NCBI GenBank assembly: GCA_015488555.1
Contig: WFNO01000078.1
Location: 1-39,175, forward strand
Source: Gammaproteobacteria bacterium
GTDB lineage: Bacteria; Pseudomonadota; Gammaproteobacteria; SZUA-140
DNA length: 39,175 nt
Direction: 5' to 3'
In this document: positions 27,402-31,632 of the stretch, one piece after another
Numbering within the stretch: position 1 is the first letter of the stretch
How the letters are laid out: each line of letters starts with the position of its first letter
The notes under the pieces: generated by a model
Seen by the model: only the letters and a program-made list of their open reading frames with translations
Told to the model about the DNA's origin: nothing
Databases searched by the model: none
Position numbers and translations under genes: made by a program

Positions 27402-28193
27402 TCAGGGTGCCGAATGGAAGGTGATGTCCCCGTACCAAGCCTCGGCGCTTGCTCCTGTGTCGTCGGTGTCTGTCATGATGGCGACCCCGGTGATGAGGGG
27501 TGGTTCGCGGCCGAAGACGTGGCGGAAGTCTTCCCGTACGTTGCGCTCCACGGTGTGCCAGCGGCCCACCCCGGCCGGACCGCTGGCGACGACGATCATG
27601 CGAGTGAAGTCGGTGTAGGCATTGGCGATGATGGTCCCGGGGGCGGCGCGGCGCGCCCACACGTAGTTGAGGGCCGCGGCCGGCAGGTCGCCGTAGAGCA
27701 GGCGTGCCGCTTGGTGTTTCAGCCGCCGGCCCCAACTCATGGCCTCTGGGTCGTAGGCGAAGGTGAGATACAGGCGGGCGGGATAGTCGTCGCCGTCCTT
27801 GCGGCGGATGTCGCTGTGCTCGATGAGGCCGCCGATCTTCCACCGCCAGCGGACGATTGGGGTGCGGCGGGGATCGATTTCGATTCTGCGGATGAGCGCG
27901 GCGGCGGCAGCCCGGCTCTGTGCGCGCACTACGGTGACCCCGCCTTCGCGAACCAGGCGGTAACGGGTGTGGCGGGGGATCTTGGGGAAGGTGAGCAGCT
28001 CCCAGCCCGGCGGCGGTGCGGCAGCGGGCGGCAGAGAGGAGAAGGCGCCCACCGTCAGGGTTTCGGCCTGAAGAGGCAGGGAGCAGAGCAATATGAGCAG
28101 CAGAATCGGTGATATATCGCGAGACCACGGGTTCACGAAAAGATCGCGAGCGCGGCTGCGGGGAACTTCAAGATGGCTATAAAGACTCTCCAT
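27402..28193 (-). CDS. Secreted DUF3047-family protein
   Basis: The product matches DUF3047: paired segments TPIVRWRWKIGGLIEHSDIRR, DYPARLYLTFAY, ALNYVWARRAAPGTIIANAY and the ending DTDDTGASAEAWYGDITF. A hydrophobic segment ISPILLLILLCSLPLQA-ET reads as a signal peptide, so a periplasmic location is likely. Function is unknown; the fold resembles carbohydrate-binding beta sandwiches in my judgement, which is inference. Start options: ATG 28193 (263 residues, overlaps the upstream GGDEF gene end by 17 nt) or GTG 28136 (244 residues, places the signal peptide at the N-terminus). Neither has a good ribosome-binding site, so translational coupling to the GGDEF gene is likely. Confidence 0.75.
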   Translation of the reverse strand: MESLYSHLEVPRSRARDLFVNPWSRDISPILLLILLCSLPLQAETLTVGAFSSLPPAAAPPPGWELLTFPKIPRHTRYRLVREGGVTVVRAQSRAAAAALIRRIEIDPRRTPIVRWRWKIGGLIEHSDIRRKDGDDYPARLYLTFAYDPEAMSWGRRLKHQAARLLYGDLPAAALNYVWARRAAPGTIIANAYTDFTRMIVVASGPAGVGRWHTVERNVREDFRHVFGREPPLITGVAIMTDTDDTGASAEAWYGDITFHSAP

Positions 28194-29211
28194 TGATGAC
28201 GCGATTGCGCCCGGTGTGTTTGGCGTGGTAGAGGGCGCGATCCGCACGGTGCAGGAAGTCCACCGAGGAATCCTGTTCCCGGAGCCAAGCCACGCCGATG
28301 GATACGGTGATCTGATCCAGTACTTCCTGTTTGTCGCCCTGCTTTCGGGTCAGGCGCGAGGCGGCGATGCCCTTGCGCAGGGATTCAGCTACGTGCAAGG
28401 CACCGTTGATGGGCGTATGCGGGAGGATGATGCTGAATTCCTCACCCCCGTAGCGGGCGACGACGTCTTGACCTTTGACTGCCTCCCGCATCTTCTCGGC
28501 CACGTAACGCAATACCTCGTCACCCACCAAGTGGCCGAATTTGTCGTTGATGCGTTTGAAGTGATCCACATCGATCATCATCAGGCACAGAGGATCCTGC
28601 TGATCGCGGGCGGCGCGAATGCAGCGCTCCAGCATCTGGTCGAAGCCCTTGCGGTTGAGCAGTCCGGTGAGGGCGTCGATCATCAGCTCTTCGTGGATCC
28701 ATTGCAGCTCGTCGCGCAGGGAGGCCAATTCTTTGGACATGGTCTTGAGTTTTTCCTGGAGTTGGCTGTTGGTAGCCACCATGGCGGCGGTCTCGTTGCT
28801 GAGGGCATCGATGATGTGCATGAGTTTGTTTTCGTCCAGGCCATGTGAGAGGCGCTGGGCATGGCCCTGCAGCGAAGACTGGTAGTGGCCAGCGGCATCG
28901 GTGGCACCGCAGATCTCCCGACTGGATTCGTTGACCAGGCGTTGCAGCTCGGCCCGCAGGCGCTCGATCTCCTGTTCCTTGTCCGTCGCCAGATAGGTTT
29001 CGTAGAGGCGTGCGTTGGTTTCTTCATCGAAGGGCCGACCGCTGGCGAGATGGTCGTCGATGGACCGGCGCAGTGCCTTGTGTTCACCCGCCACGTATTC
29101 GTACCAGATGGCGTAATTGCGCGGGGTGGGTGGAATGCCATGCTGCATGAGCAGGGGCAGGGCCAAGCGCAGGAGTTCGGCAGCGGGCTTGCGGGGCGAG
29201 GCGGGAGGCAT
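28177..29211 (-). CDS. GGDEF-domain diguanylate cyclase
   Basis: This 344-residue cytoplasmic protein probably makes cyclic di-GMP from two GTP. The first 175 residues form a helical, coiled-coil-prone sensor/dimerisation region (EQEIERLRAELQRLV, NSQLQEKLKTMSKELASLRD). The GGDEF domain follows: DALTGLLNRKGF (179-190), the metal-binding MIDVDHFKRIND, and the active loop RYGGEEF (GGEEF at 255-259), which is a catalytically competent variant. The inhibitory I-site RxxD is KGQD (246-249), so product inhibition may be weak. There are no membrane helices. The N-terminal region resembles DgcC/SiaD-type cytoplasmic cyclases with no named sensor domain. The upstream neighbours are PP2C and kinase genes on the same strand. 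Confidence 0.93.
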   Translation of the reverse strand: MPPASPRKPAAELLRLALPLLMQHGIPPTPRNYAIWYEYVAGEHKALRRSIDDHLASGRPFDEETNARLYETYLATDKEQEIERLRAELQRLVNESSREICGATDAAGHYQSSLQGHAQRLSHGLDENKLMHIIDALSNETAAMVATNSQLQEKLKTMSKELASLRDELQWIHEELMIDALTGLLNRKGFDQMLERCIRAARDQQDPLCLMMIDVDHFKRINDKFGHLVGDEVLRYVAEKMREAVKGQDVVARYGGEEFSIILPHTPINGALHVAESLRKGIAASRLTRKQGDKQEVLDQITVSIGVAWLREQDSSVDFLHRADRALYHAKHTGRNRVINGESL

Positions 29212-29349: not shown

Positions 29350-30150
29350 TCAGGCTGCCCGTCGGATCAGAATGAGCGTGAGATCGTCGGGCTTGGACGG
29401 GCGCCGGCCTTCGGAGGCGGCCATGCGCCGGCGGCAGTCCTGTACCAGTCGCGCCATGGCGTCGGCCAGCGGCCCCTTGCGAATGATGGCAACGATCTCC
29501 TCCATGTGCAAGTTGTCGTAGAGGCCGTCGCTTGCCAGCAGCACGGTATCGCGCCGGGCCAAATGCAGGGGAGGACCGATCTCGATGCGCATCTCGCGAC
29601 TGCCCAGCATGTTGAGCAGGAGATGGCGTTCTTCGTGATGCATGGCTTCATTTTCGTCCAGCAGGCCGGCTTCCACGGCGTAACCCACCGGTGAATGCGG
29701 AATGGTCTGCAGCTTGATCTTGCCGCGCTGGCCGGTGACCAGGATGGCGCTGTCGCCCACGTGATAGCTGCGCAGCACGTTGTCGTTGATCTCCACGGCG
29801 GCCAGGGTGGAACCGGCCCCCAGTTCCAGAATCTTGCGATTGGCATGGTCGATGCCGTCGAGCACCGCCTCGCGGAAATTACGCGCCGGCAGATGGGTCA
29901 TGAGGGCATTTTCCAGGGCGTGAACGACGATGGCCGAGGCCTGATCGGCGTTGGCCAGGCCGCCCATGCCGTCGGCGATGGCGAAGATGCCGGCGTTGCC
30001 GTCCAGGCAGAACAAGGCGGCGGAGTCGCCATTGGCCTGTTCGTGCTCTGGAGAACGGGAACTGTAGACGGCCACTTCATAGGAACAGCAGTTATAGGTT
30101 TCCCCATAACCCTCCATGTGGCAATTGGTCAGGATTCTCTTGTGAACCAT
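29350..30150 (-). CDS. PP2C-type serine/threonine protein phosphatase
   Basis: The 266-residue product is a PPM/PP2C phosphatase that removes phosphate from Ser/Thr using two metal ions. The metal-binding motifs are complete: NGDSAALF (Asp42), FAIADGMGG (Asp60), the GDSAILV strand (132-138), LASDGLYDN (Asp208) and the terminal KPDDLTLILI (Asp255/256). There are no membrane segments. ATG 30150 is chosen; ATG 30117 is an alternative, and an upstream TTG at 30264 is excluded because it lies in the -35 box of a promoter-like sequence. The gene follows the kinase gene by about 140 nt on the same strand, the usual pairing of an antagonistic kinase and phosphatase. Confidence 0.92.
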   Translation of the reverse strand: MVHKRILTNCHMEGYGETYNCCSYEVAVYSSRSPEHEQANGDSAALFCLDGNAGIFAIADGMGGLANADQASAIVVHALENALMTHLPARNFREAVLDGIDHANRKILELGAGSTLAAVEINDNVLRSYHVGDSAILVTGQRGKIKLQTIPHSPVGYAVEAGLLDENEAMHHEERHLLLNMLGSREMRIEIGPPLHLARRDTVLLASDGLYDNLHMEEIVAIIRKGPLADAMARLVQDCRRRMAASEGRRPSKPDDLTLILIRRAA

Positions 30151-30233
30151 GCAAATGGAAAAAACTGTCGATGAATTCAGTGTCGCCGCATCCTTTACCG
30201 GGATCCACGGCGGGGGCGTTTCGGGGGCTTGCC

Positions 30234-30264
30234 ATGATACCGCATCTGCCGGCGGATATGTCAA
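30234..30264 (-). promoter_or_regulatory. Candidate promoter of the PP2C gene
   Basis: Reading the minus strand, consensus TTGACA (30264-30259) is followed after 19 nt by TATCAT (30239-30234), five of six matches. The spacing is longer than the ideal 17. It starts 26 nt after the kinase stop codon, so the phosphatase and downstream cyclase could be expressed separately from the kinase. Confidence 0.5.
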
Positions 30265-30289
30265 TCGATGGAGAGTGATGGTAAGGCAG

Positions 30290-31069
30290 TTATTCCCATT
30301 GCATGGTTTCCAGATAGCCTTTCAATTGTCCGGCGGAACGGAATTTCTTCAGGATGGAAGTGCGTTTGAGGCCGCAGATGATGGCCTTGATCTCCGGCGG
30401 ATGTTTGGCGTAATGCTTGCGGCCGCCGATGGCATCGTAAAAGATGCGGATGAGATCGCATACGTCCTGATGGATGTTGTCTTTCTTGGGCGTGCCCCAA
30501 TGGAACATGTCCAGCAACTTGACGTTGAAGCCCAGGCCGAAGCGCTTGATGATGATGTTGTCGGTGTGCAGGTCGCCATGATATTCGCGCATGCGATGGA
30601 TGGCCTCGATGCCGCTGGCCAGGGCATGAAGCAGGTGCAGGCCCTGGAAGGGGCTGAGCCGCCCGCCCGGCTGCCGGGCGAGGAACTCGCTGAGCAATTC
30701 TCCTTCCACGTATTCGGAGACGAGAAAGGTGATGGGGAAGCCGCGGTAGGTGATGGTCTCCTGCGTGATGTACTGGATGAGAATGGGGCAATGACTGAGC
30801 CGGTGCAGTTTCCGGGCGTAATAGATACACGCCTTGTTGCCGATGTTGCGTTCCGGATAGAAGAACTTGGCCGCCCGTTCGATACCGGTGATATTCTCCC
30901 GCACCAGGAACACCTCGCCCTCCCAGCCGGCGCCCAGTTTGGTGATGACCTCGTATTTACCCGCGAGGATGCGTCCCGGATGGAGTTCGAAGCAATCGAT
31001 GGTGGTGGTTTTCGATTTTGCCCCCATGTCGCGCCCGCACTGTAGTTGCGCCTGCACTGTGCGCACCAT
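30290..31069 (-). CDS. Eukaryotic-like protein kinase with variant catalytic motifs
   Basis: The 259-residue cytoplasmic protein has a protein-kinase fold: glycine-rich loop LGAGWEGEVFLV (45-56), the ATP lysine in RAAKFFYP (Lys68), hinge SEYVEGELL, catalytic loop YHGDLHTDNIII (163-174) and metal-binding LLDMFHWG (185-192). The usual HRD is HGD and DFG is DMF; HGDLHxxN is also seen in RIO/ABC1- and aminoglycoside-kinase-like families, so the substrate might be protein or a small molecule. The pairing with a PP2C phosphatase favours protein. There is no sensor, PASTA or membrane domain. Start ATG 31069 is uncertain; ATG 31027 (MGAKSKTTTID) is an alternative. A promoter-like extended -10 lies 90 nt upstream. 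Confidence 0.85.
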   Translation of the reverse strand: MVRTVQAQLQCGRDMGAKSKTTTIDCFELHPGRILAGKYEVITKLGAGWEGEVFLVRENITGIERAAKFFYPERNIGNKACIYYARKLHRLSHCPILIQYITQETITYRGFPITFLVSEYVEGELLSEFLARQPGGRLSPFQGLHLLHALASGIEAIHRMREYHGDLHTDNIIIKRFGLGFNVKLLDMFHWGTPKKDNIHQDVCDLIRIFYDAIGGRKHYAKHPPEIKAIICGLKRTSILKKFRSAGQLKGYLETMQWE

Positions 31070-31159
31070 TGGACCGCCGCGCCTGTCCGCTGGACGGGGT
31101 GCAGGAATGTGCTGCGCCTGCCCTGGCCGGCCGAAGGTCCCTGGACGAATAGTGGGGTT

Positions 31160-31168
31160 ATTCTAGCA
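31160..31168 (-). promoter_or_regulatory. Extended -10 element upstream of the kinase gene
   Basis: On the minus strand TGC-TAGAAT (31168-31160) is an extended -10 motif with five of six core matches, in an A/T-rich patch within GC-rich DNA. No clear -35 box is seen, which extended -10 promoters can do without. Transcription would start near 31153, about 85 nt before the kinase start, and after the stop of the acidic protein gene (31192). Confidence 0.4.
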
Positions 31169-31191
31169 AAAACCCTGCCGTTTCGTGGAAT

Positions 31192-31632
31192 TCAGTCCAG
31201 TTCCTCGTCCAGGTCTTCCACCGACTGCAGGTCGGGGTCCAGGTCCAGGAGTTCCTCGTCCAGCTCGGTGACGGCGGCTTCCGGGTCTTCTGCGGGAAGG
31301 GCTTCGGCGGTTTCTGCTTCTTCCGCCGCTGCCGCGGCGGGCGCAGCAGGTCGTTCGGGGACGTCGATGCGCGGCGTGGTCTTGGGCTGGAAATGTCGCC
31401 GGGCCTTGGTGAAGGCGTCCTTGAGTTCTTCGTAGAGGGCTTGTTCTTCAGGCCGGAAATCGCGCATCTTGGTTTCCACGATGTCGCGCCGGTATTCGAC
31501 GAATTCGCCACGCGCCAGGTTGAACAACCAGACGGTGTCCGGCTTGCCGGTGGTGAGCCGCGGATCGAGCGCCACCGCCGTGCTTTTCTTGCCAGCCTCC
31601 AGATAGGCGAAAATGACAGAATCTTCAGCCAT
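31192..31632 (-). CDS. Hypothetical protein with strongly acidic C-terminal tail
   Basis: This 146-residue product has no family I recognise. Residues 1-85 look folded (MAEDSVIFAYLEAGKKST, VWLFNLARGEFVEYRRDIVETKM). Residues 90-146 are low-complexity, rich in Ala, Pro and Glu, ending in two copies of an LDEEL motif (TELDEELLDLD and EDLDEELD). The tail lacks Ser/Thr except for a few positions (TAEAL, TELDEE, QSVED), which sit in casein-kinase-like acidic contexts. It is the first gene of the minus-strand signalling cluster, 120 nt ahead of the kinase gene. ATG 31632 has no strong ribosome-binding site. An interaction partner or substrate of the kinase is one possibility (inference). Confidence 0.65.
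   Translation of the reverse strand: MAEDSVIFAYLEAGKKSTAVALDPRLTTGKPDTVWLFNLARGEFVEYRRDIVETKMRDFRPEEQALYEELKDAFTKARRHFQPKTTPRIDVPERPAAPAAAAAEEAETAEALPAEDPEAAVTELDEELLDLDPDLQSVEDLDEELD

Follow-up and report, generated by a model that had tools for sequence, protein, structure and literature searches.

A conserved kinase/PP2C gene pair with an unusual, compact kinase on a gammaproteobacterial contig

Genes at the locus

The window, by which we mean the whole 39,175-nucleotide stretch of DNA that was analyzed, is an entire contig (G000:C78) from a gammaproteobacterial draft genome of 2.35 Mb in 132 contigs. An initial annotation had described four adjacent minus-strand genes in this contig, and all four open reading frames are found in the order and at the coordinates given there:

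28177-29211, minus strand: soluble diguanylate cyclase (GGEEF) with a helical/coiled-coil N-terminus; outside the conserved pair and a neighbor of it in this genus only
29350-30264, minus strand: stand-alone PP2C-type (PPM) phosphatase, recognized from Pfam, NCBIfam and conservation
30290-31069, minus strand: stand-alone variant Ser/Thr-type kinase, recognized from Pfam, structure and conservation
31192-31632, minus strand: small acidic-tailed protein with a conserved N-terminal domain of about 80 residues, from an independent gammaproteobacterial family; a neighbor of the pair mainly within this genus

The absence of a membrane domain that had been claimed for these proteins is borne out by their hydrophobicity, because no membrane-helix-like stretch occurs in any of the four (maximum KD19 1.26).

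There are 164 bp between the genes for the acidic protein and the kinase, 139-172 bp from there to the PP2C gene, and a further 138 bp before the gene for the cyclase. The range for the second gap comes from measuring it to two likely PP2C start codons, and this gap is wider in the genus of the window than elsewhere. Because of these distances, a single operon is not obvious for the four genes. Promoter and terminator scans gave no more signal than shuffled sequence, and together with gaps of 138-172 bp this result does not allow the genes to be assigned either to one operon or to four transcription units. Behind the cyclase, on the same strand, lies a DUF3047 gene (255 bits) at 27402-28247.

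A kinase that lacks an activation segment

The kinase matches the Pfam Pkinase profile with 45 bits (cut-off 31.7), and only positions 1-141 of the 263 in this profile are covered. An AlphaFold2 model has a confident kinase fold (pLDDT 86.6, pTM 0.81), to which the nearest solved folds are those of mycobacterial PknA and PknB (Z 19.6, rmsd 3.6 over 219 residues). The conserved family begins at Met15 (31027).

The label of variant kinase that this protein had received is correct, and it can be made precise by the motifs that are conserved and lost among 56 relatives. The Hanks-type invariants, namely the VAIK lysine (Lys68), the catalytic aspartate (Asp166), the asparagine (Asn171) and the metal-binding aspartate of DFG (Asp187), are present in all 56 sequences, as is the alpha-F aspartate (Asp202). 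The catalytic loop has the form HGDxHxxN. The alpha-C glutamate is absent: none of the 56 kinases has an acidic residue at positions 84-88, and the corresponding glutamate of solved kinases aligns onto Tyr84 or Lys87 of the window protein. The DFG glycine is not retained across the relatives either. The spacing from Asp187 to Asp202 is exactly 15 in every one of the 56, and there is therefore no room for an activation segment and an APE motif. Glu50 and Glu52 are invariant in the same set and positions 58 and 104 are always acidic, so that one of these four may stand in for the alpha-C glutamate. Almost no variation is seen at Thr61 and Ser118. The loss of the alpha-C glutamate together with the activation segment could mean that protein-kinase activity is weak or absent.

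This family is single-copy and is unnamed in Pfam and NCBIfam beyond the domain level. A search of open-access papers, which may have missed earlier work, found none on it, and a search for plasmid relatives returned distant kinases only. Long open reading frames in three genomes (G302, G199 and G138) were considered as fusions of the kinase to another domain; inspected by eye, they look like upstream open frame or masked extensions instead. An anti-phage defense kinase of the MAD6, PD-T4-6 or PglW type was also rejected. The matches to these proteins, like those to kinases in general, are confined to the kinase domain (residues about 17-187), and for MAD6 and PglW the scores are far under the NCBIfam cut-offs. 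None of the three neighbors of the kinase gave a convincing match to a defense system.

The PP2C phosphatase

The phosphatase scores 52.8 bits against Pfam PP2C_2 (cut-off 24). Its start is most likely the ATG at 30150 or that at 30117 instead of the TTG at 30264, because a relative in G007 begins at the MVHK methionine. The metal-binding aspartates D30, D48, D121, D196 and D243/D244 (numbered from the E at 30114) are kept in 40 of 40 sequences. Unlike members of the named Stp1/IreP subfamily (NF033484), which has a cut-off of 230 bits, the window protein reaches 107.6 bits and so falls outside this subfamily. The kinase is the better conserved of the two enzymes, with a mean pairwise identity of 0.61 versus 0.48 over 35 loci.

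Conservation of the kinase/PP2C pair

We surveyed 369 genomes drawn evenly from the class to which the window belongs. The kinase, defined by a family profile match at E below 1e-90, occurs in 45 of these genomes with one copy in each. The PP2C orthologue, defined by a match at E below 1e-60, occurs in 38, and the next phosphatase matches appear only at E 1e-30. Both genes are found together in 34 genomes versus 4.6 expected (Fisher p about 5e-34), or in 33 versus 4.4 (p about 4e-33) without the genome of the window itself; these p-values treat genomes as independent although they are related, and the 34 genomes cover many families. In all but one of the 34, the PP2C gene directly follows the kinase gene on the same strand (33 genomes); in the exception, G138, the two are on separate contigs. 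In nearly all fetched loci the PP2C domain begins 26-112 bp after the kinase stop. Among 59 loci, no third neighbor of the pair is seen in more than 4.

This adjacency is conserved across families and also on contigs titled as other phyla. One scan of GTDB genomes yielded 15 relatives of the kinase, of which 14 share 57-90% identity with the window protein and one, a Halobacteriovoraceae copy, shares 48%. The titles of the metagenome-assembled genomes (MAGs) carrying the 14 include Gammaproteobacteria, WOR-3, Binatota, Bacteriovoracia, Gemmatimonadetes and Eisenbacteria; such titles can be wrong, and the spread over phyla is consequently a claim about contigs. The Bacteriovoracia-titled MAG has the pair in the same order with a PP2C that is only 34% identical, and in the Binatota-titled one the order is reversed.

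Each gene also occurs without the other. Four genomes have the PP2C orthologue without this kinase. In two of them (G185 and G384) the gene immediately in front of it encodes a canonical kinase of a different kind (115-126 bits in Pfam), an arrangement which suggests that this PP2C stays with a kinase even after the kinase has been swapped. The PP2C is at a contig edge in G328 and alone in G318. Loci with the PP2C behind a canonical kinase are L160 (4170-5492) and L161 (6385-7173), and a weak match to a zinc ribbon is seen in the tail of one of the two kinases. The kinase occurs without the PP2C orthologue in 11 of its 45 genomes, and on several related proteobacterial contigs a rhomboid-family gene directly behind the kinase replaces the phosphatase (L026, 8741-9598; L027, 8744-9496; L028; L029; L030). 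These cases indicate that the kinase is able to work without this phosphatase. The rhomboid was rejected as a general partner, having been seen on these few related contigs only.

The flanking genes

The acidic tail noted earlier in the 31192-31632 product is evident from its composition, with 22 Asp or Glu versus 2 Lys or Arg among the last 60 residues. The protein has no match in Pfam or NCBIfam, and 12 of its relatives have none in Pfam. Its predicted structure has a pLDDT of 62.7 overall, with about 78 for the N-terminal domain and low values for the tail. The family, which combines this domain with an acidic tail, is present in 19 of the 369 genomes. Its gene is often near thiC (named by eye) and otherwise in varied places (loci L162-L173). 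Close to it in two distant genomes is a gene for a small secreted-looking protein that is similar by eye between them (L004, 420-794; L171, 2683-3075) and was not seen at the corresponding place in the window.

The cyclase matches Pfam GGDEF with 161 bits. Its N-terminal region was used as the query for this cyclase type, so that the other, numerous GGDEF proteins are not counted, and on this definition it occurs in 42 of the 369 genomes.

Proposed function of the pair

The kinase gene (30290-31069) and the PP2C gene that follows it (29350-30264) probably form a two-gene unit whose products act against each other on the same intracellular target. The kinase is expected to bind ATP through its normal Lys/Asp/Asn/Asp set. 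Without an activation segment it would not be switchable by autophosphorylation of an activation loop, and for this reason it is probably always competent or else controlled by the binding of a partner. It would phosphorylate Ser/Thr residues of one target, or of a small number of targets, inside the cell, the PP2C would strip the phosphate placed there, and the ratio of the two activities would constitute the signal. Because no other gene is linked to the pair, the target is probably encoded elsewhere, at no fixed adjacent position. We infer a shared target from the pairing of the genes; opposing action on it, control by a partner and a soluble target are likewise inferred. A precedent exists in the same genome, in which a PP2C domain and a kinase domain are joined in a single 618-aa protein. 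A broader and distinctly more tentative proposal is that these proteins represent an unnamed, widespread subfamily of compact kinases without activation segment and alpha-C glutamate, which would have a dedicated PP2C and a target conserved across several phyla, and which might be controlled through the phosphatase or a binding partner instead of by kinase autophosphorylation.

The PP2C could instead act mainly on the kinase itself, autophosphorylated outside the activation loop, which would make the pair a self-resetting switch. This phosphatase is found with a kinase even where the kinase is of another type, dephosphorylation of cognate kinases has been reported for other bacterial pairs (PMC12088040), and the near invariance of Thr61 and Ser118 fits the same idea. 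However, these two residues may be structural. The usual site of such dephosphorylation is the activation loop, and a phosphate there is excluded because the segment is absent from this kinase. We consider action mainly on the kinase unlikely, and slightly less likely still that the kinase has ceased to be a protein kinase, having become a Bud32/RIO/Kdo-like ATPase switch or an enzyme for some other substrate, with the PP2C kept for another purpose. Bud32, RIO and Kdo-type enzymes are likewise compact, and the lack of an alpha-C glutamate, DFG glycine, activation segment and APE motif is consistent with such a change, as are the HGDxHxxN loop and the weak similarity to Pfam Kdo and NCBIfam Bud32 profiles. 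The best sequence and structure matches are nevertheless Hanks-type protein kinases, and three quarters of the genomes with the kinase also encode a protein phosphatase, by a gene that almost always adjoins that of the kinase.

The initial annotation had joined all four genes into a candidate signaling module in which kinase and PP2C share a substrate, either the acidic protein or the N-terminal part of the cyclase, whose phosphorylation would be linked to cyclic di-GMP. Such a scheme would resemble SiaABCD. The survey of gene neighborhoods supports the kinase/phosphatase couple within this proposal and does not extend to the acidic protein or the cyclase, and a four-part switch appears very improbable. 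A differently built operon with PP2C, kinase and diguanylate cyclase does control a cyclase: in SiaABCD, the cyclase SiaD is bound by SiaC, the protein on which the membrane PP2C and the unusual kinase of that system act (PMC7278518). Two species of this genus have all four window genes side by side, and repeated linkage of the four in distant genomes was not found. The whole region is syntenic between the two species, including Nudix and U32 genes, so their shared arrangement is little evidence for a module. The acidic protein and the kinase co-occur above expectation (7 versus 2.3; 6 versus 2.2 without the window's own genome, p = 0.013). Within the family of G281, all four genomes with the acidic protein have the kinase, and G281 itself is the only case outside the two species of this genus in which the acidic-protein gene adjoins the pair. 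However, the G281 copy, which lies behind the PP2C, is cut short by a stop codon, and the other three of these four genomes carry the gene on another contig. In the class sample, the acidic protein is encoded elsewhere in five of the seven genomes that also have the kinase, and 12 of its 19 genomes lack the kinase. Part of the weak co-occurrence comes from one family (G099, G223 and G326) and perhaps reflects shared ancestry. The cyclase type is shared with the kinase at the chance rate (5 genomes versus 5.1 expected) and is on a different contig in the other four genomes with both, which leaves the link from Ser/Thr phosphorylation to cyclic di-GMP without comparative support. A search of open-access papers found no Hanks kinase/PP2C pair acting on a cyclase. 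The best explanation is that the genes for the acidic protein and the cyclase evolve separately and lie next to the pair by chance in this genus. Dropping them from the hypothesis keeps the hunt for the target from being misdirected, and it leaves the kinase and PP2C as the unit of interest.

Comparison with known systems

Genetic linkage and opposing action have been reported for bacterial kinase/PP2C couples (PMC12088040). PknB-PstP of mycobacteria, PrkC-PrpC and Stk1-Stp1 likewise have a kinase gene beside a PP2C gene of the Stp1/IreP type. The window pair resembles them in retaining the catalytic residues of both enzymes and in having a kinase fold closest to PknA/PknB. In contrast to theirs, the window kinase is a soluble protein with neither PASTA nor membrane parts, and it lacks the alpha-C glutamate, DFG glycine and activation segment. 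The couple is thus of an ordinary kind with an unusual, unnamed kinase, whose control must differ because it does not have the element that switches on most bacterial Ser/Thr kinases. Conserved as a single-copy pair in numerous families of one class, seen also on contigs from other phyla and unnamed in Pfam and NCBIfam above the domain level, it is a defined, testable unit.

Like SiaABCD of Pseudomonas aeruginosa, the window encodes a phosphatase of the PP2C type together with a kinase, a small protein and a diguanylate cyclase. SiaA is a membrane PP2C, SiaB is an unusual kinase and SiaC is a Thr-phosphorylated partner, whereas the window has a kinase of Hanks type and an acidic protein that falls into no Pfam family, and conservation does not extend to the association with the cyclase. 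Membership in this system was rejected: the acidic protein has no SiaC-type match, and the cyclase scores 160 bits against the SiaD-type model NF038266, below its cut-off of 290, with only the GGDEF part matched.

In E. coli, the kinase YegI and the PP2C_2-type phosphatase PphC (YegK) are encoded close together, a likeness that we draw by description only. YegI is larger than the window kinase and has extra domains.

The PP2C-kinase fusion in the genome of the window is encoded on contig C66 (L001, 1297-3153) and consists of a PP2C_2 domain (residues 69-261) followed by a canonical kinase domain (331-564). It resembles the pair in coupling these two domains. It differs in being one chain with a canonical kinase and a hydrophobic C-terminal tail, and its gene lies beside that of an MFS transporter. 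In sister genera without the stand-alone kinase, weak kinase-only matches in large open frames suggest similar fusion proteins.
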